Shown here piece by piece: positions 48,195 through 58,357 of a stretch of DNA of 64,000 bases. The notes under the pieces are model-generated. The model had not been told where the DNA came from, did not search any database, and saw only the letters and a program-made list of their open reading frames with translations. Where the stretch lies: the NCBI RefSeq assembly GCF_001969385.1, contig NZ_CP014796.1:3179501-3243500 (forward strand). Direction: 5' to 3'. The position numbers were made by a program, and so were the translations under genes. This stretch comes from Salipiger profundus. Its GTDB lineage: Bacteria; Pseudomonadota; Alphaproteobacteria; Rhodobacterales; Rhodobacteraceae. How positions within the stretch are numbered: the stretch's first letter is position 1; every line of letters begins with the position of its first letter.

Positions 48195-49237
48195 TCCGCG
48201 TCGTCTCCGAGCTGCCGCCGGTGACCGGTGCCGAGCGCGCCCGCCTGCTGGCGGCGCCGCGCATCGCCGAGGCGCACCGCGAGATGATGGCCGACGTGCC
48301 CGCGATGTCGATGGTGCAGACCGGCGGCACCGCCACCGCGCGCGACCTGCCTGCCACGCTTTCGGTCGTGGCATGGAACCTCGAACGCTGCCTCTTCCCC
48401 GAGGACAGCGCCGCGCATCTGGCGCATCTTGCCCCCGATGTGCTGCTGCTGTCGGAGATGGATCACGGCATGGCCCGCACCGGCCAGCGTCACACGACCG
48501 AGGCGATGGCCGCCGCGATGGGCATGGCCTATGCCTACGGTGTGGAGTTCCACGAGCTCGACCTTGGCGGGCCGACCGAGCGGCATTTCTGCACCGACGA
48601 CTTCAACGCGCTCGGCTGGCACGGCAACGCGATCCTGTCGAAGGTGCCTTTCGAGCGGGTGACGCTGATCCGGCTCGACGATCACGGCCACTGGTTCAGC
48701 GCCGAGGCGGGCGCCGACCCCGAGCAGCCGCGTCTTGGCGGCCGCATGGCGCTGGCCGCCGTGCTGCCGACTGCCGCAGGGCCGGTGTGCATGGTCTCGA
48801 CCCACCTTGAAAGCAACGCCGATGCCGAGCACCGGGCGGCGCAGATGCGCCTTCTGCTCGACGGGATCGAAGCCTTCGCGCCCGGGCTGCCGGTGCTGAT
48901 CGGCGGCGATCTGAACACCGGCAACCACCTGCCTCCGGATTTCGACTGGCGGCGCGAAACGCTCTTCGAGTTGGCCGAGACGCGCGGTTACGACTGGGGC
49001 TTCACCGCCGACGGGCCGACCACGCGGCCCAGCCTCATCACGCCGCACCCCGAGCGGGTCATGAAGCTCGACTGGTTCGCCGGACGGGGCCTTGCACCGC
49101 GCGAGACGGCGGTTGTGTCGTCGCTCGACGGCGACGGGCGGCCGCTGTCCGATCACGACGCGGTCTGGTGCCGGGCCGCAGTGACCGGTGACGGCGGACT
49201 TGATCGACCGCCGAAGACGGCTTATCTGTCTAGGTAG
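48191..49237 (+). CDS. Endonuclease/exonuclease/phosphatase-family phosphodiesterase
   Basis: The 348-residue protein has the EEP fold: [10 protein letters not shown] (metal-binding Asn), [18 protein letters not shown] (metal-binding Glu), [30 protein letters not shown] and the final SDHDAVW. The GTG start overlaps the ugpC stop (GTGA), so it is part of the ugp operon. EEP enzymes cleave phosphodiesters in nucleic acids, inositol phosphates or sphingomyelin. In this place it may do the job of UgpQ, cutting glycerophosphodiesters brought in or made outside; no clear signal peptide is present, so a cytoplasmic site is likely. The substrate is inferred. Confidence 0.83.
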
Positions 49238-49256
49238 CTGGACAGGAGTGCCAAGG

Positions 49257-49499
49257 ATGCTTTCGCTTCAGGATGCCAAGAACCGCTTCAGTGCCGTCGT
49301 CGAGGCGGCGCTTGCCGGACGCCCGCAAAAGGTCTCGCGCCGGGGCAAACCCGCCGTGGTGGTTCTGGCCGCCGAGGAATACGAGCGCCTGGTGAAGGCC
49401 GCGCAGACCCAGCGCGGCAGTTTCCAGGAGCATCTCATGGCGCTTCCCGCCGACGACGTGCCGCGCGCGGCGGCACGTCCGCGAGACGTGGAGTTTTGA
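49257..49499 (+). CDS. Phd/YefM-type antitoxin
   Basis: The 80-residue protein starts MLSLQDAKNRFSAVVEAALA and contains KVSRRGKPAVVVLAAEEYER, the Phd/YefM fold that binds operator DNA and neutralises its toxin through the C-terminal tail. AGGAG lies nine bases upstream of the ATG. It overlaps the toxin gene by four bases. Confidence 0.88.
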   Translation: MLSLQDAKNRFSAVVEAALAGRPQKVSRRGKPAVVVLAAEEYERLVKAAQTQRGSFQEHLMALPADDVPRAAARPRDVEF

Positions 49500-49903
49500 T
49501 CTACATCCTCGACACCAACGTGATCTCGGATGCCCGCCGGGCCCATCGCGCGCCGCAGGTGGCGCAATGGCTGGCGGATCGTGACGAGCGCGAGCTTTAC
49601 CTGAGCGTCGTCACGCTGGGCGAGATCGAGCGTGGCATCGTGCTTCAGGAGCGGAAGAACCCGGAGTTCGCGCGCGATCTGCGGGCGTGGCTGGCGCGCA
49701 CGGTCCAGCTGTTCTCGGATCGTCTGCTGCCGTTCACGACCGAGGATGCACTGCGCTGGGGCGCGCTGTCGGCGCGGGTGGGACACCCGGGCGCCGACCT
49801 GATGATCGCGGCGCAGGCGCTGACGCGCGATGCGGCCGTGGTGACCCGGAATGTCGCGGATTTCGAACCGACGGGGGCGCGGATCGTCGACCCGCTTGCC
49901 TGA
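49496..49903 (+). CDS. VapC-type PIN-domain toxin
   Basis: The 135-residue PIN ribonuclease has the acidic site residues D6 (YILDTNV), E43 (TLGEIERG), D101 (GADLMIAAQA) and D122 (VADFEPTG). It starts with TTG overlapping the antitoxin stop (TTGA), so translation is coupled. Phd-type antitoxin with a VapC/FitB-type PIN toxin is a common pair on plasmids and may help keep this replicon. Confidence 0.88.
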   Translation: MIYILDTNVISDARRAHRAPQVAQWLADRDERELYLSVVTLGEIERGIVLQERKNPEFARDLRAWLARTVQLFSDRLLPFTTEDALRWGALSARVGHPGADLMIAAQALTRDAAVVTRNVADFEPTGARIVDPLA

Positions 49904-49914
49904 GGGCAGGCCTG

Positions 49915-50319
49915 TCAGCCGGCCTTGGCGCGCAGTCCTTCGTCGGCCTTGAGCCGGAGCGCGCTCTTGAGGCTGCCGGTGTCCACCGGCTTGTGACAGC
50001 AGATCGCGCCGGGATAGCGCTCGGAGATTTCGTCGTCGTTCACGTGACCCGAATGGAACACCAGCGGCACGCCCATGTCGCGCAGCCGGTCGGCAAGCGG
50101 ATAGACGAGCCCGTCCTTGAGGCTGACGTCGAGCAGGGCCACGTCGGGCGGATCCTTCTCGAGGCCCTCGTAGGCGCTCTTGAGGCTGGGGTAGGGGCCC
50201 TGAACGATGAATCCGAACTCTTCGATCATGAGCTGCATGTCCAGCGCCACGACGAATTCGTCCTCGCAAACCATTACCTTGGCTTTGCGCCCGCTATCAC
50301 AACCCGGCTTCTGGAGCAT
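49915..50319 (-). CDS. Single-domain response regulator
   Basis: The 134-residue protein is a stand-alone receiver: acidic pair E19-D20 (VMVCEDEF), phospho-acceptor D64 (VALLDVSLKDG), T/S position in FHSGH and K109 region (CCHKPVD). There is no output domain. It overlaps the upstream HWE kinase by 23 bases and is most likely its direct partner. HWE-kinase-linked receivers of this type often modulate or compete for the phosphate that controls the alphaproteobacterial general stress response. Confidence 0.85.
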   Translation of the reverse strand: MLQKPGCDSGRKAKVMVCEDEFVVALDMQLMIEEFGFIVQGPYPSLKSAYEGLEKDPPDVALLDVSLKDGLVYPLADRLRDMGVPLVFHSGHVNDDEISERYPGAICCHKPVDTGSLKSALRLKADEGLRAKAG

Positions 50320-53300
50320 ACGACAAAGTCATCCTTCTTGCATTATTCTCATAATCCACCGCGATCTTGCCGTTGAGCTGCGCTGCGGAAAGCTGGATCA
50401 GAGTGGAGCCGAAGCCGGACCCCTCACCACCGGGAACAACTTCGCGGTCGTGGATTTCGTTCCACGTCAGCGTAATTTCCCCATCGTCACCTCGCGACCA
50501 CGTGACTTCGAGCCTGCCGGGCGCGGGGCCGAGCACACCGTATTTCGCCGCGTTCGTCGCCCATTCGTGCAGCAGCAGTGAGAGTGCGGTGAGATCGTGG
50601 CGCGCGACTGGCAGGGGAGGCCCGCCGACCGTCCATTCGCCCTGGCCCTCGTAGGGTTCGAGCGTGGCGCGCACCGCGTCCTCCAGCATGAGGTTGCGCC
50701 CGTCCATCGCCGGCTGCGTCATGTCGTGCGAGCGGGCAAGCGCGTTGACCCGGCTCTGGATGCTTTCCACGAGATCTTCGACCGTCTCCGAGCTGCGCCC
50801 GGCGATGCGGACCATGCCCGAGATGATCGAGAACATGTTCTTCACACGGTGGTTCATCTCGCGCAGCATCATGTCGCGGATCGAGCGGGCCTCCTGTTCG
50901 GAGGTCACGTCGAAGAGCACGCCGAGCACACGCGTGGTGCGGCTGGACTGCACCCGCTTGCCGACGAGTTGCACGGAGGTGAAGCGTGGCCCGGTGCCGG
51001 CGAGCCGGAAGGTCACGTCGATGCCGTCACCGTCATTCTCGACGGCTGCGAGCGCCGCAGAGACCCGCTCGCGGTCCTCGTGGGTGATGAGTGCGAGGAA
51101 GCGGTGCAGCGGCAGCTCCCCCTCGTCGACAGAAAGGATGTTGGCTCCGGTGCCGTCGATCTTCAGCACCTCGCGGGCCGGGTCGGCCTCCCAGACCCCG
51201 AGCGACGAGACATCGAGCGCCAGCCGCAGGCGCTCGCCCTCGCGGTTGAGCGCTTCCTCGAGCCGCAGCGCGTTGGTGACCTCGGTGAAGACGAGCGTGG
51301 CGCCGTCGAGCGCCCCGTCGCGGGCGCGGTAGGGCGTGACCACCAGCGACCAGGTGCGATCCTCGGCCCTGTCGGTGACGCTGAGGTGCCGGATCTCGCC
51401 GTCGTCCATCACATCGCGGATCAGCCCGAGCACCTCGTCGTTCTGGCGCAGCGTGCTGGTGACCTCGACCAGAGGGCGCCCCCGGTCGGTGTTGCGGAAC
51501 GGGTAGATGCTCTGGATCGCGTCGGTGAAGTTCCGGATCGCCATGTCGCGGTCGACGACCACCAGCGGCAGCGCGGTGGAGGCGAAGAAGTTCGACAGGT
51601 CGGCATTGGCGACCGACAGCTCGTCGACCTTGCCCTTGAGCTCGTCGTTGACGGTCGAGAGCTCCTCGTTGGTCGACTGGAGCTCCTCGTTCATCGACAT
51701 CATTTCTTCGTTGGAGCTCTTCAGCTCCTCGTTCGCGGTCTCGAGCTCCTCGACGGTGGTGTGCAGCCGAACCCGGGTGGCGCGCAGTTCGTCCTCGAGG
51801 CTCTGCACATGGCTGTCCATCGGCTCGAGCTCTTCGAACTCGTCTTCGTCGAGCGGCTCGAAGCGGTCGCGGTCGCGGAAGATCAGCAGGATGGTGCCGT
51901 CGCTCAGCGGCTCGGCAATGAGGTCGAAGCTCTGCTTGCCGAACTCGGACTGCGCTTCGAGCCCGCGCGAAATGGCACGGCTCTTGTTCTGCGTGACCTG
52001 CCGGATGATCGCCGATACGGGCTCGCGCACTCCGGGGCGGGCGACCGACGGCGCGAAGCGTGCGCCCTCGTCCTCCTGCGAGAAGTCGAGATACTTGCCG
52101 AGCCGGCCGGTGGACTTGAGAATCTCGCCCGCCGGGCTCACCCGCAGGCTGGGCGGCGCGTATTGTGCCAGCAGCCGTTCGGAGGCGCCGCCGTCGCCCC
52201 ATTCGAGCCGTGTCGAGGGCTGGTCCTCCTGCGCCGGCCGCCGGCGGCTCGGCTCGCGCTCGGTCTCGCGGCCACGCAGGTGCAGCGGATACTCGGGCCG
52301 CCCGTTGTTGCGCTGGAACACCCGCGCGGTCTGGTCGAGCGGCTGGAAGGCGTGATCGTAGCGGCCCACGGTCTCGGAAGGGCCGAGGAACAGCGTGCCC
52401 CCCGGCTTGATCGCGTAGTGAAAGATCGGCAGCGCCGTCTTCTGCAGACCGTCGCCGAAGTAGATCAGCAGGTTTCGGCAGGACAGCAGGTCAATGTTCG
52501 AGAACGGCGGGTCACGCACGATCGAATGGACCGAGAAGCGGATCATGTCGCGGATGCGGGCCGACATGCGGAACTGCCCGTCGCGCGCGATGGTGTAGAG
52601 GTCGCGCATGCCCTCGGGGATGTCGCCGAGCGCCGCCTGCGGATAGGATGCCTCGCGCGCGAGGCGAAGCATCTGCTCGTCGATGTCGGTGGCGAAGATC
52701 TGGATGTTGACCGACCGCTTCTGCAGCCGGCATTCCTCGGCGAAGAGCATGGCGATGGAATAGGCTTCCTCGCCGCTGGAACAGCCGGGCACCCACACGC
52801 GGATCTCGTCACCGTTGCCGGCGTTCTGCACCAGCGGCTTGACCGAGAGTTCGCGCAGCGCCTCGAAGTGCTCGGAGTCGCGGAAGAAGCGGGTGACGTT
52901 GATCAGCAGGTCACGGAAGAGCAGTTCGCATTCGTGCGGGTCCGACCGGATGTGTGCAAGATACTGCCCCGCGTCGGACAGGTCGAGCACCTGGATCCGA
53001 CGCTGCACGCGCCGCACGAGCGTGGATTGCTTGTAGCCCGCGAAATCATGCCCGACGAAGTTGCGCACCACGGTGCAGATGTCCGAAAGGTGCCGCTCGA
53101 CGGTGTTGGCCAGCTGCTTGTCCACGGTGCCGACCGAGGCATGGGCGTAGAACTGCCGGATGGCCTCGACGATCTCGCCGGGCGGGCGCACGAAATCCAC
53201 CAGCCCGGTGTTCTGGGCCGAGGTCGGCATTCCGTCGTATTTCGCGGTGCGCGGATCCTGCACGATGCAGAGGCCCCCGTGCTCCTTGATGGCGCGCAGC

Positions 53301-53749
53301 CCGGCGGAGCCGTCTGCGCCGGTGCCCGACAGGATCACGCAGGCGGCGAAGCGGCCCTGGTCGACGGCGAGGCTTTCGAAGAAGTCGTCGATCGGCCGGC
53401 GCAGCCCGCGGGGCTGGGCGAATTCCGTCAGCTCGAGCTTGCTCTCGCGGACCGACAGCCCGTGGCCCGGCGGGATGATGTAGACGTTGCCGGCCTCGAT
53501 GCTCTCGCCGCCCGAGACCTGCATGACGTTCAGCTCGGTGTAGCGCGAGAGCAGCTCGGCGAGCAGGCTTTCATGGTTGGGATCGAGGTGCTGGACCACG
53601 ACGTAGGCAAGGTTGTTGTCGGCGCGCGTCGAGCCGAGCATTTCGCGGATCGCCTCGAGCCCCCCGGCGGAGGCGCCGATGCCCACGATGCAGAGGCGCT
53701 CGGCTTCCTCTTCGGTCTGTGTGTCCGCGGTCTGGTCGTCGTCTTTCAT
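50297..53749 (-). CDS. CheB-CheR-PAS-HWE histidine kinase fusion
   Basis: The 1150-residue protein joins several modules. CheB methylesterase, residues about 20-200, has S27 (GIGASAGGLE), H54 (VVQHLDPNH) and D147 (GTGADGSAG). CheR methyltransferase spans about 210-480 (HDFAGYKQSTLVRRVQRRI; VWVPGCSSGEEAYSIAMLF; FSNIDLLSCRNLLIYF). A long coiled coil rich in EELKSSNEEMMSMNEELQST lies near 670-720, followed by two PAS regions and a C-terminal HWE kinase from about 961 (LREMNHRVKNMFSII; HEWATNAAKYG). No receiver precedes CheB. It follows the LOV gene by 18 bases and precedes the receiver gene. The LOV-kinase-receiver set probably signals light or stress. Confidence 0.9.
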   Translation of the reverse strand: MKDDDQTADTQTEEEAERLCIVGIGASAGGLEAIREMLGSTRADNNLAYVVVQHLDPNHESLLAELLSRYTELNVMQVSGGESIEAGNVYIIPPGHGLSVRESKLELTEFAQPRGLRRPIDDFFESLAVDQGRFAACVILSGTGADGSAGLRAIKEHGGLCIVQDPRTAKYDGMPTSAQNTGLVDFVRPPGEIVEAIRQFYAHASVGTVDKQLANTVERHLSDICTVVRNFVGHDFAGYKQSTLVRRVQRRIQVLDLSDAGQYLAHIRSDPHECELLFRDLLINVTRFFRDSEHFEALRELSVKPLVQNAGNGDEIRVWVPGCSSGEEAYSIAMLFAEECRLQKRSVNIQIFATDIDEQMLRLAREASYPQAALGDIPEGMRDLYTIARDGQFRMSARIRDMIRFSVHSIVRDPPFSNIDLLSCRNLLIYFGDGLQKTALPIFHYAIKPGGTLFLGPSETVGRYDHAFQPLDQTARVFQRNNGRPEYPLHLRGRETEREPSRRRPAQEDQPSTRLEWGDGGASERLLAQYAPPSLRVSPAGEILKSTGRLGKYLDFSQEDEGARFAPSVARPGVREPVSAIIRQVTQNKSRAISRGLEAQSEFGKQSFDLIAEPLSDGTILLIFRDRDRFEPLDEDEFEELEPMDSHVQSLEDELRATRVRLHTTVEELETANEELKSSNEEMMSMNEELQSTNEELSTVNDELKGKVDELSVANADLSNFFASTALPLVVVDRDMAIRNFTDAIQSIYPFRNTDRGRPLVEVTSTLRQNDEVLGLIRDVMDDGEIRHLSVTDRAEDRTWSLVVTPYRARDGALDGATLVFTEVTNALRLEEALNREGERLRLALDVSSLGVWEADPAREVLKIDGTGANILSVDEGELPLHRFLALITHEDRERVSAALAAVENDGDGIDVTFRLAGTGPRFTSVQLVGKRVQSSRTTRVLGVLFDVTSEQEARSIRDMMLREMNHRVKNMFSIISGMVRIAGRSSETVEDLVESIQSRVNALARSHDMTQPAMDGRNLMLEDAVRATLEPYEGQGEWTVGGPPLPVARHDLTALSLLLHEWATNAAKYGVLGPAPGRLEVTWSRGDDGEITLTWNEIHDREVVPGGEGSGFGSTLIQLSAAQLNGKIAVDYENNARRMTLSYAPEAGL

Positions 53750-53767: not shown

Positions 53768-54313
53768 CTATCGCGTGTCACGCAGTGACAGCCGCGCCAT
53801 CATGGCTACCGAGTCCGCGAGCTGCTGGGCAGAGCTCATCATCGCGAGACCGTATTCCCGGCCCATCTGCTCCACGTCGCTGAGCACCGTGCGCAGGGTT
53901 TCGTCGTTCTGCCTGATCTTTGATCGCTGCATCGCGTTCGTCATGTCGAACTGAGACGCAATGATGTAGCGGACCGCGTCGGAGCTGTCACGAATCCGGC
54001 TCATGAAGACGTAGTTGAGGAACTCGCTGCCGTCCTTGCGATAGTTCAGGATCGGAAATCGCCCGCTGTCCTCGCCCAGACCATGCACGAAATCATGAAG
54101 CGGCTGTCGTTGTTCCTCGGACGTGCCCTCGCCCTGCAGGAAACGGCAGTTGCGCCCCTTCACTTCGTCTTCGGTGTAGCCGGTGAGCTTGGTGAAGGCA
54201 TCGTTCACGAACATCAGCGGTGCGTCGCCCTCGCACACCGATACCGCGAGCGCGACGCCGGAGCGTTGAAGGTAGGCGGCCAGGCGGTCGGGAAGTTCGA
54301 GGGAAGCGGTCAT
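53768..54313 (-). CDS. Short LOV-domain photoreceptor
   Basis: The 181-residue protein has one LOV domain (residues about 18-125): GDAPLMFVNDAFTKLTGY, then the flavin-binding GRNCRFLQG with the adduct-forming C56, and NYRKDGSEFLNYVFMSRIRD. Helices follow to the end with no output domain, as in short LOV proteins. C56 and the neighbouring Asn/Gln-type residues predict a blue-light photocycle with FMN. The start at MTASLELP is preferred by domain length although no good ribosome site is visible; an in-frame ATG 72 bases upstream is possible. It is co-oriented with the CheB-CheR-HWE kinase and may be its light input. Confidence 0.87.
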   Translation of the reverse strand: MTASLELPDRLAAYLQRSGVALAVSVCEGDAPLMFVNDAFTKLTGYTEDEVKGRNCRFLQGEGTSEEQRQPLHDFVHGLGEDSGRFPILNYRKDGSEFLNYVFMSRIRDSSDAVRYIIASQFDMTNAMQRSKIRQNDETLRTVLSDVEQMGREYGLAMMSSAQQLADSVAMMARLSLRDTR

Positions 54314-54578
54314 ATACGGAGTCGAGATCGTCGCGTTGCGGTAAGCTTGAGATAATCGGAGGATGACCTGCGCAAGGCAAGCCACTTTGCCAGATCAGCT
54401 AGGGCGGCGCTCGCGCCGGTCCAGCCTGCCGTTACGGAAGTCGCGGGATCTTCGGGCCGGACGTGTCTATAACGCCCCTAAAGCCGCTGCAAACCGGGGT
54501 TGCCGGGGGGAGAGCATTGACTCTTTTCGCGCCGCTTGGCTTACCATTTTCCGAAACGACAACATTACGGTGCCTGCA
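54314..54578. promoter_or_regulatory. Divergent promoter region between LOV and stressosome operons
   Basis: The 265-base gap separates the two head-to-head signalling operons. TTGACT at 54517-54522, 17 bases from CTTACC, could be a weak promoter for rsbR. I looked for the GGAAC-type -35 element of the general stress sigma factor EcfG and did not find one on either strand. Confidence 0.3.
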
Positions 54579-55454
54579 ATGCCGCGATCCGCCACAGCCA
54601 ACATCCTGACCATCCTCGAGACCAGCTTTGACGGCGTGGTGGAGGAATGGCTCGGCACTCAGGTCCAGGAGGGCGTAAAACGCTCGGACCTGTTCTCGGA
54701 CGCCGAGAGCCGCACGCAGAACGCGGACCTGCTCAAGGCCTTCTCGAAGGGTGTGCGCGCCGGCGTGGTCGACGAGGAATTCAGCCTCGAGGACGAGGCC
54801 TGGGAAGATCTCCGGGTCGTTCTGGCCGACGTGAGCAAGGAACGCGTGAGCCGGGGCGTGACGCCGACCGAGATGGCGACCTTCGTGCTGGCGCTCAAGG
54901 CGCCGCTGTTCAAGCGCCTCGAAGAGCACCTGAACGATGACCAGGGCGTGCTGATCCGCGACGTGCTTCTGGTCACGCGGCTGGTCGATGCCTTTGCCGT
55001 CTACACCAACGAGATCTTCATCGCCGAGCGGGACCAGATCATCGACCGCCAGCGGCAGGAGATGCTCGAGCTTTCGACCCCGGTGGTCGAGCTCTGGGAC
55101 CGGGTGCTGACGCTGCCGCTGATCGGCACGCTCGACTCCGCCCGCGCGCAGGAGGTGATGGAGAACCTTCTCGAAACCATCCTCGAGCGGCAGGCCGAGG
55201 TGGTCATCATGGACATCACCGGTGTCGGCACGGTCGACACGCAGGTCGCGCAGCACCTGCTGCGCGCCGCCGCCGCCGTGCGCCTGATGGGCGCCGAATG
55301 CATCATCAGCGGCATCAGCCCGATGATCGCGCAGACCATGGTGCAGCTCGGCATCGACGTGGGCACCGTCTCGACCCGGTCGAGCATCCGCACCGCGCTT
55401 GCAGATGCGCTGCAGAAGGTCGGCTACGTCATCAAGACCACCGAGGGGGCCTGA
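54579..55454 (+). CDS. rsbR: Stressosome sensor protein RsbR
   Basis: The 291-residue protein has an N-terminal globin-like helical sensor domain (residues about 10-155) and a C-terminal STAS domain (about 165-285). The STAS core reads MDITGVGTVDTQVAQHLLRA and ISGISPMIAQTMVQLGID, as in Bacillus RsbRA. The phosphorylation site equal to T205 is T221. The site equal to T171 is a Ser (S187, TLDSARA). No heme or flavin-binding His is obvious in the sensor. An in-frame GTG nine bases upstream is an alternative start. It heads an operon with rsbS, rsbT and two larger genes. Confidence 0.88.
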   Translation: MPRSATANILTILETSFDGVVEEWLGTQVQEGVKRSDLFSDAESRTQNADLLKAFSKGVRAGVVDEEFSLEDEAWEDLRVVLADVSKERVSRGVTPTEMATFVLALKAPLFKRLEEHLNDDQGVLIRDVLLVTRLVDAFAVYTNEIFIAERDQIIDRQRQEMLELSTPVVELWDRVLTLPLIGTLDSARAQEVMENLLETILERQAEVVIMDITGVGTVDTQVAQHLLRAAAAVRLMGAECIISGISPMIAQTMVQLGIDVGTVSTRSSIRTALADALQKVGYVIKTTEGA

Positions 55455-55457
55455 TCC

Positions 55458-55811
55458 GTGTCGGGGGTTACGTCGATCAATCTCGTCGAGAACGCGCTGC
55501 TTGTCTCGATCCAGGACGACGTCACCGATACCGAGATCGTCGAACTGCAGGACACGCTCTCGCACCGCATCGCCAAGAACAACGTGCGCGGCGTGGTGCT
55601 CGACATCTCGTCGCTCGAGATCGTCGACACCTTCGTGGGCCGGGTGATCGCGCAGCTCGCCGGGATCTCGCGGCTCCTCGCCGCCGAGACCTACGTGGTG
55701 GGCATGCGTCCGGCGGTTGCGGTGACGCTGGTCGAGCTTGGCATGTACCTGCCCGAGACGCGCACCGCTCTCAGCCTCACGCACGCGCTGTCGCAGTTGC
55801 GGCGTGGTTGA
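55458..55811 (+). CDS. rsbS: Stressosome scaffold protein RsbS
   Basis: The 117-residue STAS protein matches RsbS across its length. The phosphorylation Ser is S51 in VLDISSLEIVDTFVGR, equal to S59 of the Bacillus protein, and GMRPAVAVTLVELGM is the following conserved block. RsbS and RsbR build the stressosome core that holds RsbT until stress causes phosphorylation. It starts three bases after the rsbR stop. Confidence 0.9.
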   Translation: MSGVTSINLVENALLVSIQDDVTDTEIVELQDTLSHRIAKNNVRGVVLDISSLEIVDTFVGRVIAQLAGISRLLAAETYVVGMRPAVAVTLVELGMYLPETRTALSLTHALSQLRRG

Positions 55812-55839
55812 CAGGACCGCTGCCCCGACCGGAACGCGC

Positions 55840-56223
55840 ATGGCGAAGATCGGGCTTTCGGCCGGTCGTGACGTCGTCGCCGCCCGACAGGCGGTTGCCC
55901 GCATCATGAAGGAGCGCGGCGCGTCGGCGATCCGGGTGACGCGCTTCGCGACGGCGGTCAGCGAGATCGCCCGTAACGCGATCGTGCACGGCGGCGGGGG
56001 CGAGATTTCCGTTTATCTCGACGCCCGTAACGATTATCTGCGCGTCGAGTGCCGGGATGCGGGGCCCGGGATCGAGGATGTGCCGCTTGCAATGACCGAG
56101 GGTTACACCACCGCCGGCGGCCTCGGACGGGGTCTCAGCGGGGCCAAGCGGCTGTCGCACGATTTCGAGATCCGCTCCGCCCCCGGCGAGGGGACCTTTG
56201 TCGTGATGAGCGTGAAGTTATGA
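55840..56223 (+). CDS. rsbT: Stressosome switch kinase RsbT
   Basis: The 127-residue protein is a GHKL-type serine kinase: DVVAARQAVARIMKERG, N box EIARNAIVHGGG, G1 box RDAGPGIEDV and G2 box GGLGRGLSGAKRLSHDF. This is the RsbT pattern. On stress RsbT phosphorylates RsbR and RsbS and is released to activate a partner. A GTG at 55804 that overlaps rsbS is a possible earlier start. Its stop overlaps the next start (ATGA). Confidence 0.88.
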   Translation: MAKIGLSAGRDVVAARQAVARIMKERGASAIRVTRFATAVSEIARNAIVHGGGGEISVYLDARNDYLRVECRDAGPGIEDVPLAMTEGYTTAGGLGRGLSGAKRLSHDFEIRSAPGEGTFVVMSVKL

Positions 56224-57221
56224 ACCAGTGGGTCGAGATTGACGATCGCAGCGCCGTGGCCGTGGTGCGCCGGCTGGCGCGGCGTTACGGGGCCGAGATC
56301 GGGCTGTCCGAGCGGCGGCTCGAGGAATTGGCCATCGTCGTGACCGAGGCCAGCACCAACATCCTGCGCTATGCCGAGCGGGGCAGGGCGCTTGCGAGCA
56401 TGACCCGTGCGCCGGGCGTGGCGCAGCTGGTGCTGATCTTCACCGACCGGGGGCCGGGCATCTCCGACGTGGACCGGATGTTCCAGGACGGCGAAAGCTC
56501 GACCGACTCCGCCGGGCTCGGGCTCGGGGCGATCCGGCGGCTCTCGGACAGCTTCGACATTCTCAGCTCGAGCGAGGACGGCACAACCATCGTCTGCACC
56601 TTCGACGCAAGGAACGTGCCGCTCAGCCCCGAGATCGAGGCGGTGGGGCTGCGGGTCTGCCATCCCAAGGAGCGCGAGTGCGGCGACGACTTCGTGCTGC
56701 GCCAGACACGTGGCGCGACCGACGTGCTGCTCTGCGACGGGCTGGGTCACGGGCCGCTCGCCGCCGAGGCCTCGGCCGAGGTCATCGAAGCGGCCAACGG
56801 CCTCGATGCCGAGCCGGGTCGGAGCATGCGGCGGATCACCGAGCGCCTCGTCGGCCATCGTGGCGCGGTGGCGAGCATCGTGCATATCGACTGGCCCGAG
56901 ATGACAATGCGCTACGCCGGCCTTGGCAATATCGCGACGATCTGGATCGGCGCGCAGGGCGTGAAGCGGATGGCGGTGCGCGACGGCCGCATCGGTGCGG
57001 TGCCGACCGGGGGATACGAAGAGACCGTGCAGCTTGCGGTGGGGGACATGGTGATCCTGCACAGCGACGGGCTCAAGACCCTGCGCGAGGCGCATTTCCG
57101 GCCCGGGCTGCTGCACAAGAGCCCGCTTCTGATCGCGGGCTTCCTGCTTGATCGGGCATTTCGCGGGCGCGACGATGCGAGCATCGTGGTGATCCGGCTG
57201 ACAGGGGAGCGCGAGGGATGA
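56220..57221 (+). CDS. RsbT-like ATPase fused to RsbX/SpoIIE-type phosphatase
   Basis: The 333-residue protein has an N-terminal GHKL ATPase domain (residues about 1-130: EASTNILRYAERG, DRGPGI, GLGLGAIRRLSD) and a C-terminal PP2C-like SpoIIE/RsbX phosphatase domain (about 140-330) with metal ligands in CGDDFVL (D157-D158), LCDGLGHGPLAAEAS (D173) and the final GRDDASIVVI. RsbX removes phosphate from RsbR and RsbS to reset the stressosome. Having an ATPase domain in front is not found in Bacillus RsbX. It overlaps both neighbours by four bases. Confidence 0.87.
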   Translation: MNQWVEIDDRSAVAVVRRLARRYGAEIGLSERRLEELAIVVTEASTNILRYAERGRALASMTRAPGVAQLVLIFTDRGPGISDVDRMFQDGESSTDSAGLGLGAIRRLSDSFDILSSSEDGTTIVCTFDARNVPLSPEIEAVGLRVCHPKERECGDDFVLRQTRGATDVLLCDGLGHGPLAAEASAEVIEAANGLDAEPGRSMRRITERLVGHRGAVASIVHIDWPEMTMRYAGLGNIATIWIGAQGVKRMAVRDGRIGAVPTGGYEETVQLAVGDMVILHSDGLKTLREAHFRPGLLHKSPLLIAGFLLDRAFRGRDDASIVVIRLTGEREG

Positions 57222-58357
57222 AGTCGGCAAAACTGACGACGCTGACGCTCGAGGACGGCTCGGACGTCGCCCGCCTGCGCGAGATTGCCATGGCGCTGAC
57301 CAAGGTGCTGTCCTTCGGGGCGTTCGAGCGCACCCGTGCCGTCACCGCGGTGGTCGAGCTTGGGCGCAACGCCGTCGAGCATGGCCAGAAAGGTCGCGCG
57401 ACCTTTACCCTGACCGACCTGAAGGGAAAACCGGCGCTGGGGCTCACGGTCATAGACCAGGGTGAGGGCATCCCCAGCGAGAAGCTCGATCCAGACCGGA
57501 AGATCGACTCGTCCTCGGGGCTGGGGCTCGGCCTGCGCGGGGTGCAGCGCATTGCCGCGCGTTTCGATGTCGAAACCGGCGCCGAGGGCACCCGCATTGA
57601 TGCCACCTTCCTGCCCTCGTCCAAGATCAGCTCCGCCCGCGACAGCCTCATCGCCCGCGCCCACGAGGCGCTCGAGGACCTGAAGGCCAACGATCCGACG
57701 GCGGTGCTGGCCGAGAAGAACCGCGAATTGCAGGCCGGCATCGCCGACCGCGACCTGCTGATGCAGGAACTGCACCACCGCACCGGCAACAATCTCGCGC
57801 TGATCGTGGCGCTGATCCGCATGAGCCGCTCGCAGGCCGTGCAGGACGAGACGCAGCAGGCGCTCAGCGAACTCGAGGTGCGCGTCGGCTCGCTGTCGAA
57901 GGCGCATGAACTCATGCAGCGCACCGCCAACTCCGGCGACATCGATCTCTGCGAGATGCTCGACGAGGTCGCCCGGAACGCGGAACAGGCGTTCAGCGGC
58001 GAGGGCTTCCGGGTGCGCATTTCGGTCACCTGTCCCGCCATGAACCTCGACGGCAAGCTGGCGATCGACATCGGCCTGATCGTCGGCGAGCTGATCACCA
58101 ACGCCTACAAGTACGCCTTTGACGGACGCAGCGAAGGGATGATCGCCGTCGACGCCTCGGGCGACGCGGGGCAGGGGCTGGTGCTCACGGTGTCCGACGA
58201 CGGCGTTGGCCTCGGCGATGGCAACAAGCGGCCCGAGCGCTCGAACTCGCTGGGCTGGCGGATGATCCGCACGCTGACGTTCCAGCACAACGCGACCCTG
58301 TCGGTGGATGGCAGCGACGGGCTGTGCGTGCAGGTGCGCTTTCCCGGCATCGACTGA
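57218..58357 (+). CDS. Histidine kinase with N-terminal RsbT-like ATPase domain
   Basis: The 379-residue protein has two ATPase domains. Residues about 1-133 form an RsbT-like GHKL domain (VELGRNAVEHGQKG, DQGEGIPS, GLGLGLRGVQRIAARFD). After a short coil, residues about 180-379 form a HisKA_2-type histidine kinase: phospho-acceptor H187 in QELHHRTGNNLALI, and the kinase ATPase with GELITNAYKYAFDG and SDDGVGLG. No membrane segment is present. It overlaps the phosphatase gene by four bases and ends the rsbRST operon. It probably takes the stressosome signal and passes phosphate to a response regulator; no such regulator lies in this operon. Confidence 0.87.
   Translation: MKSAKLTTLTLEDGSDVARLREIAMALTKVLSFGAFERTRAVTAVVELGRNAVEHGQKGRATFTLTDLKGKPALGLTVIDQGEGIPSEKLDPDRKIDSSSGLGLGLRGVQRIAARFDVETGAEGTRIDATFLPSSKISSARDSLIARAHEALEDLKANDPTAVLAEKNRELQAGIADRDLLMQELHHRTGNNLALIVALIRMSRSQAVQDETQQALSELEVRVGSLSKAHELMQRTANSGDIDLCEMLDEVARNAEQAFSGEGFRVRISVTCPAMNLDGKLAIDIGLIVGELITNAYKYAFDGRSEGMIAVDASGDAGQGLVLTVSDDGVGLGDGNKRPERSNSLGWRMIRTLTFQHNATLSVDGSDGLCVQVRFPGID

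Follow-up and report, generated by a model that had tools for sequence, protein, structure and literature searches.

Heinz et al. 2022 (PMC9237108) describe RSTX stressosome modules that come with a REC protein and an RsbU_N-HisKA kinase. They are among the known systems closest to the one reported here, and in that Vibrio study contact between RsbT and the downstream kinase could not be demonstrated. In Bacillus subtilis, RsbT orders a helical linker in RsbU (PMC12143880). HWE/HisKA_2 kinases are known to phosphorylate PhyR directly or via SdrG/MrrA (PMC5898713, PMC5964349, PMC12148442). We analyzed a stretch of 64,000 nucleotides from Salipiger profundus (NZ_CP014796.1, positions 3,179,501 to 3,243,500; the window), in which a five-gene operon on the plus strand at positions 54579-58357 encodes RsbR, RsbS, RsbT, a PP2C phosphatase (TX) and a HisKA_2 kinase (TK). 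The cassette is best explained as a complete Gram-negative stressosome, consisting of RsbR, RsbS and RsbT plus an RsbX-like phosphatase, with the HisKA_2 kinase as its output; for this explanation as a whole, including the mechanism proposed below and PhyR as the receiver, we estimate a joint probability of roughly 0.5. The system bears on how stressosomes without sigma B pass on their signal.

The genes are separated by a 3 nt gap (rsbR/rsbS) followed by overlaps of 8, 4 and 4 nt (Table 1). An initial annotation made from the DNA letters had described five overlapping or nearly adjacent genes for RsbR, RsbS, RsbT, a phosphatase and a kinase; its coordinates proved to be exact and the Pfam matches agree with it, these being in gene order RsbRD_N and STAS; STAS; HATPase; HATPase_c_2 and SpoIIE; and finally HATPase_c_2, HisKA_2 and HATPase. 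All components of an RSTX module, namely RsbR (sensor and STAS), RsbS, RsbT and an RsbX-type PP2C, are encoded together, and a total of three RsbT-like GHKL domains occur in the operon, which are RsbT itself and the N-termini of TX and TK. The rsbT start was placed at a GTG codon that is matched, exactly or 3 nt off, in eight out of twelve relatives; a start at the ATG at 55840 was rejected as none of the twelve relatives uses a start codon there. The absence of RsbU and sigma B, also claimed in the initial annotation, holds for the operon, while genome-wide no search for them was made and two STAS-HATPase pairs of RsbV/W type are found elsewhere. These two STAS+GHKL pairs of the source genome (G000:C1:2747916-2748709 and 2882610-2883316) are possibly RbaV/RbaW-type partner switches.

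Table 1. Features of the five-gene operon and its upstream region (positions in the window).
Feature	Position	Strand	Description and evidence
RsbR homologue	54579..55454	+	RsbRD_N sensor residues 11-115, STAS residues 170-260 (Pfam)
RsbS homologue	55458..55811, GTG start	+	Single STAS domain (Pfam); best PDB match 6jhk RsbS, E=1e-23
RsbT homologue, GHKL switch kinase	55804..56223, GTG start	+	Pfam HATPase_c 53 bits; alignment; start-codon comparison
TX	56220..57221	+	RsbT-like GHKL residues ~1-130 fused to RsbX-like PP2C phosphatase residues ~140-330
TK	57218..58357	+	RsbT-like GHKL residues ~1-133, helical linker, HisKA_2 with HHRTGNN (H187), second HATPase residues ~260-379
Possible promoter, 27 nt TTGAC...TTGGC[CT]TA	54517..54543	+	57-62 nt before rsbR; not EcfG type

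Judging from the alignments, the phosphorylatable residues of RsbR and RsbS are conserved as in stressosomes. In the profile alignment, threonines of the solved RsbR chains stand opposite RsbR T221 and T253, and the residue paired with RsbS T58 in the solved RsbS chain is a serine. T221, T253 and T58 are each invariant in 11 of 11 rows. We take their counterparts in B. subtilis to be T171 and T205 in RsbR and S59 in RsbS.

The N-terminal domains of TK and TX (TK-N and TX-N) were compared with RsbT using a hidden Markov model (HMM) whose 20 RsbT rows came from TK operons (17) and from stressosomes lacking TK (three, loci L105-L107). Scores were obtained for 14 TK-N, 14 TX-N and 14 TK catalytic domains and for eight of the fifteen other HATPase_c_2 matches in the genome, namely those for which a locus had been retrieved; a script excised the part surrounding each match. 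The TK-N domains reached 70.9-94.9 bits in all 14 rows (71.8 bits in the window) and the TX-N domains 72.3-87.4 bits (14 rows), against a ceiling of 29.4 bits for the eight other GHKL domains of the genome and of 11.1 bits for TK's own catalytic domain. TK residues 16-130 are also matched by HATPase_c_2 in Pfam, and a search with only residues 1-133 gives 41.7 bits, above the cut-off of 27.4. By sequence, TK residues 1-133 are assigned to the RsbT family, in line with the initial annotation, which had seen an RsbT-type GHKL domain ahead of HisKA_2 in the last gene and had staked its reading on residues 1-133 belonging to the HATPase/RsbT family. The RsbT HMM scores led us to reject, or to hold less likely, that TK-N is a duplicated kinase catalytic domain or an anti-sigma factor of the RsbW type. 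A sequence search of the PDB with TK-N alone gave one chance match, and in a tree of GHKL domains TK-N forms one clade (97/93).

The remainder of TK is a HisKA_2 region (residues 184-257, 53.7 bits in Pfam) with a second HATPase after it. The HRTxN of its H box is present in 24 of 24 rows, which places TK among the HisKA_2/HWE (HRxxN) kinases. Invariant in all 24 rows are the ATP-site residues of TK-N (E47, R50, N51, D80, G82, G84, G103 and G105), H187-R188 and N191 of the H box, and N295, D327, G329 and G331 of the second HATPase. In the structure model of TK (m8f0ea0b93955; predicted local distance difference test (pLDDT) 77.7, predicted template modelling score (pTM) 0.63) the linker is predicted to form two helices parted by a weak break, one spanning 141-157 and a single long one spanning 163-206 that runs through the H box, and the kinase half is nearest to the EL346 kinase (PDB 4r3a/4r39). 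Pfam finds no RsbU_N domain in TK, which sets it outside the RsbU_N-type stressosome kinases.

The TX N-terminus is matched by HATPase_c_2 (Pfam, 56.0 bits) and scores 79.7 bits against the RsbT HMM; the initial annotation had identified the phosphatase correctly and overlooked this domain in front of it. The closest PDB folds to the TX structure model (m67ddabb2cb49, pLDDT 87.0) are 3zt9 and 3w40 (RsbX), followed by SpoIIE. The entry 3zt9, which belongs to the stressosome paper, we take to be the Moorella RsbX. This nearness to RsbX folds suggests that TX is probably the enzyme that resets the core, which would leave TK as the output. An RsbU-type output phosphatase was rejected or held less likely because of the same order of folds, RsbX and then SpoIIE, and because of the absence of RsbU_N from the Pfam matches.

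A total of 24 loci were examined, comprising the window, thirteen loci from a scan of public genomes and ten more (eight family loci and two plasmid loci); TK matches in six further Sulfitobacter genomes and in 57 of 60 plasmid records stand outside this count. The order RsbR-RsbS-RsbT-TX-TK is kept at all 24 loci with the kinase gene last each time, and because of this recurrence the cassette is not a chance arrangement. The public-genome scan returned 43 relatives of TK, of which 30 match in the kinase half only and thirteen in both halves; the latter are found in Salipiger, Alloyangia, Sulfitobacter, Thioclava and Pacificimonas, and all have the five genes in order. Our genome surveys (TK, PhyR and RsbS in the family, TK in the class) scored the best 4 to 11 candidates per genome, so that the counts are lower bounds. 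TK occurs in at least 10 of 394 Rhodobacteraceae genomes, about one per genus, and in at least 2 of 385 genomes in the class survey. Among 72,556 plasmid records TK was found in 60, and 58 of these are from Phaeobacter. Crude gene calling at 22 TK loci showed flanks common to close relatives (e.g. Sulfitobacter) and no sixth gene family across these loci, the widest reach being 6 and 7 of 25 loci in varied places.

Several individual loci were also recorded. Alloyangia pacifica KcN7-14 has two complete five-gene operons on different contigs (L009 and L011) with TK proteins that are 91% identical, while in one Sulfitobacter genome (G411:C1:2735371-2736500) TK is interrupted by an in-frame stop and split into two parts, owing to either error or decay. 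In Phaeobacter inhibens DSM 17395 the operon (genes PGA1_RS18475-18495) is located on the plasmid pPGA1_262 (L116 11340-15158), about 5 kb before paaZ and on the same replicon as the TDA antibiotic cluster, and this location makes an experimental test practical.

RsbS was found in at least 13 of the 394 family genomes, ten with TK plus three with a more distant RsbS. Close RsbS homologues (E 2.4e-45 or better) occur in ten genomes, which are exactly the ten with TK; homologous operons with the kinase absent or elsewhere, which the initial annotation had named as evidence that would speak against it, were not among them. Of the three genomes with distant RsbS and no TK, two show another layout (L106 and L107) and the third locus (L105) ends at a contig edge. 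The RsbR of L105 (genome G017) and L106 (G250) has a protoglobin sensor. The core of L106 is followed, in this order, by RsbT, a frame resembling a lone PP2C, an RsbU_N-HisKA kinase (RsbU_N 37.1 bits) and a REC gene, the PP2C-like frame and the REC gene both being recognized by eye, and L107 (G226) encodes an RsbU_N-like protein just below the Pfam cut-off.

From this anatomy and conservation we infer each protein contact and phosphate step of the following mechanism. At rest, the RsbR/RsbS core would hold RsbT together with the RsbT-like domain of TK, and probably that of TX, on its STAS surface. Under stress, RsbT would phosphorylate the conserved sites RsbR T221/T253 and RsbS T58, and the bound GHKL domains would be released. 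The freed TK-N may then set the helical linker that leads into the H-box helix (163-206 in the model), much as RsbT acts on the linker of B. subtilis RsbU, after which TK would autophosphorylate on H187. TX, docked on the core via its own RsbT-like domain, would strip the Ser/Thr phosphates and so reset the core. The phosphate of TK would most likely pass to PhyR, either directly or via an SdrG/MrrA-type single-domain regulator, and so free EcfG from NepR. In its broadest form, a Firmicute-type stressosome would drive PhyR-NepR-EcfG via an RsbT-domain kinase, with three RsbT-family domains competing for one STAS surface so that a single core would govern kinase, phosphatase and output through partner exchange; we hold this version tentatively, at somewhat less than even odds. 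The initial annotation had suggested that stress is read out as histidine phosphate, which fits the anatomy in that the kinase gene is last at 24 of 24 loci and TX is RsbX-like. Its further suggestion that RsbT or the stressosome acts on the kinase found no support in the form given, as TK has an RsbT-like domain where an RsbU_N domain would be expected.

PhyR, a receiver that the initial annotation did not consider, is suggested as the most likely one by its co-occurrence with TK. In the source genome PhyR, NepR and an extracytoplasmic function (ECF)-type sigma gene lie side by side with a HisKA_2 kinase at the general stress response (GSR) locus, where the sigma gene was assigned on the strength of matching PhyR in its sigma-like half. 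PhyR is present in all ten TK genomes of the family sample versus at least 179 of 384 without TK (at least 189 of 394 overall; Fisher p=5.7e-4, and p=1.2e-3 when counted by genus, with 9 of 9 TK genera having PhyR), in 12 of 12 named TK genomes and in 10 of 10 Sulfitobacter genomes with TK. After removal of overlaps (one between the family sample and the named set, four between the named set and Sulfitobacter) PhyR is found in 27 of 27 distinct TK genomes, with the source genome included and one of them having the split TK; for Phaeobacter, the genome covered by the PhyR search was that of P. porticola (G075). A receiver domain lies within 3 kb of the operon at two of 24 loci only (L008 and L010), as found with a receiver HMM whose small set of rows included two taken from the wrong strand and which recovered the independent control L059; a response regulator as a fixed member of the cassette was rejected on this count.

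A number of observations weigh against the proposed pathway, mostly at the step to PhyR. The co-occurrence of TK and PhyR is not corrected for descent. PhyR is present in 57 of 62 Sulfitobacter genomes anyway, which makes a test within this genus uninformative, and among the three stressosome genomes lacking TK it is found in two (G226 and G250) with no match in G017. The HRxxN motif also occurs in the CheB/CheR-HWE kinase of the window and in the kinase of the GSR locus, and being general in the HisKA_2/HWE family it was rejected as proof of a PhyR kinase. TK scores 68.7 bits against the PhyK equivalog model, far below the cut-off of 750, and PhyR of R. sphaeroides serves membrane stress and not the general response (PMC5830050). 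No EcfG-type promoter was found within 350 nt upstream of any of 14 operons, and EcfG control of the operon was rejected; one such site stands directly before phyR in the same scan. As for the kinase itself, the nearest solved structure, EL346, is a monomer, and a switch acting through a dimer linker is thus not assured in TK. In the GHKL tree the deeper branching is unsure and long branches meet, and the tree was rejected as a guide to which domain gave rise to which.

The way in which the signal reaches TK can also be read differently. Free RsbT could be the messenger, leaving the core to bind TK-N or the linker, with TK-N pairing with RsbT and not docking on the stressosome. The B. subtilis RsbT-RsbU scheme runs via free RsbT (PMC12143880), the same scheme was proposed for RsbU_N kinases (PMC9237108), of which L106 encodes one, and a separate RsbT gene is retained at all 24 loci. 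However, TK has no RsbU_N domain, and TX, an RsbX-like enzyme that would work on the core, carries the same RsbT-like domain, which fits docking better; we regard RsbT as the messenger as unlikely. With an RsbT-like domain fused to TK at the place where RsbU_N kinases receive RsbT, the view that TK docks directly on the stressosome is at least as good. In the simplest version, TK would not have to wait for RsbT but could itself dock on the STAS core, to be released upon phosphorylation of the core. It is very improbable that TK-N instead joins RsbT in phosphorylating the STAS proteins on Ser/Thr, leaving the histidine kinase half as only a dimer scaffold or a side branch; the invariant ATP site of TK-N would suit such a role, but the HisKA_2 histidine and the four residues of the second HATPase are equally invariant, and they would be needless in a scaffold.

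The wiring up to H187 might also be right and the receiver a separate single-domain regulator whose output is unrelated to EcfG. A CheB-CheR-PAS-HWE kinase gene (50297-53749) and an overlapping gene for a PRK13435-like single-domain response regulator (49915-50319) occupy positions 49915-53749 on the minus strand of the window. This regulator, 4.3 kb from the operon, is the example at hand, and its relatives are found upstream of rsbR at L008 (0.3 kb, 50% identical) and L010 (2.4 kb, 54%). Yet it occurs in the flanks of just three of the 24 loci, and its gene overlaps the end of the HWE kinase gene, which makes that kinase its more likely partner. We consider such a receiver slightly less likely still than RsbT as the messenger, and keep PhyR as the preferred one.

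The element TTGAC...TTGGC[CT]TA listed in Table 1 recurs at an equal spacing in 11 of the 14 upstream regions and is absent in L020, and a strict sigma-70 scan of the region upstream of rsbR gave no match. Divergent from rsbR, on the minus strand at 53768-54340, is the gene for a short LOV-type PAS protein with an NCRFLQ motif, presumably the flavin-binding cysteine motif. Its best NCBIfam matches are LOV kinase models followed by YtvA, and none of the other 23 operon loci showed a match to it in the flanking DNA examined. Two overlapping small genes on the plus strand at 49188-49903 resemble, by eye, a Phd-type antitoxin and a PIN-domain toxin.

Stressosomes with HisKA/REC outputs are already known, and the RsbT-kinase fusion is a new variation on them as far as the searches made can tell: in the literature searched, which covered few subscription papers, we found no report of a fusion between an RsbT domain and either a histidine kinase or RsbX, and none of a stressosome feeding PhyR. 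Because the presumed output kinase bears its RsbT-like domain covalently, the coupling is directly testable with five proteins. If PhyR is indeed the receiver, two stress systems so far described as alternatives would form one pathway.

With the B. subtilis RsbRST-RsbU-RsbX pathway the cassette shares the core proteins, their phosphosites and an RsbX-like reset enzyme, whereas its operon lacks the RsbU_N phosphatase and sigma B and its predicted output is a histidine kinase with a fused RsbT-like domain. The modules of PMC9237108 are likewise proteobacterial, with RsbR-S-T-X followed by a kinase in place of RsbU/sigma B, and L106 is an example from the same family as the window. These modules have a protoglobin RsbR sensor and an RsbU_N-HisKA kinase, while the present cassette has an RsbRD_N sensor and a HisKA_2 kinase, carries RsbT-like domains on both the phosphatase and the kinase and contains no REC gene. 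The Pak, PhyK and LOV-HK kinases (PMC5898713, PMC5964349, PMC12148442) resemble TK in the HisKA_2-type core with HRxxN, and PhyR is present in all 27 TK hosts tested; their N-termini consist of PAS, GAF or LOV domains as opposed to the RsbT-like GHKL domain of TK. Finally, the stressosome of Moorella thermoacetica (PMC12143880) also has its output module swapped behind the same core, and the TX phosphatase is nearest to 3zt9; the output is a GGDEF cyclase with RsbU_N in Moorella and, by our reading, a histidine kinase here.

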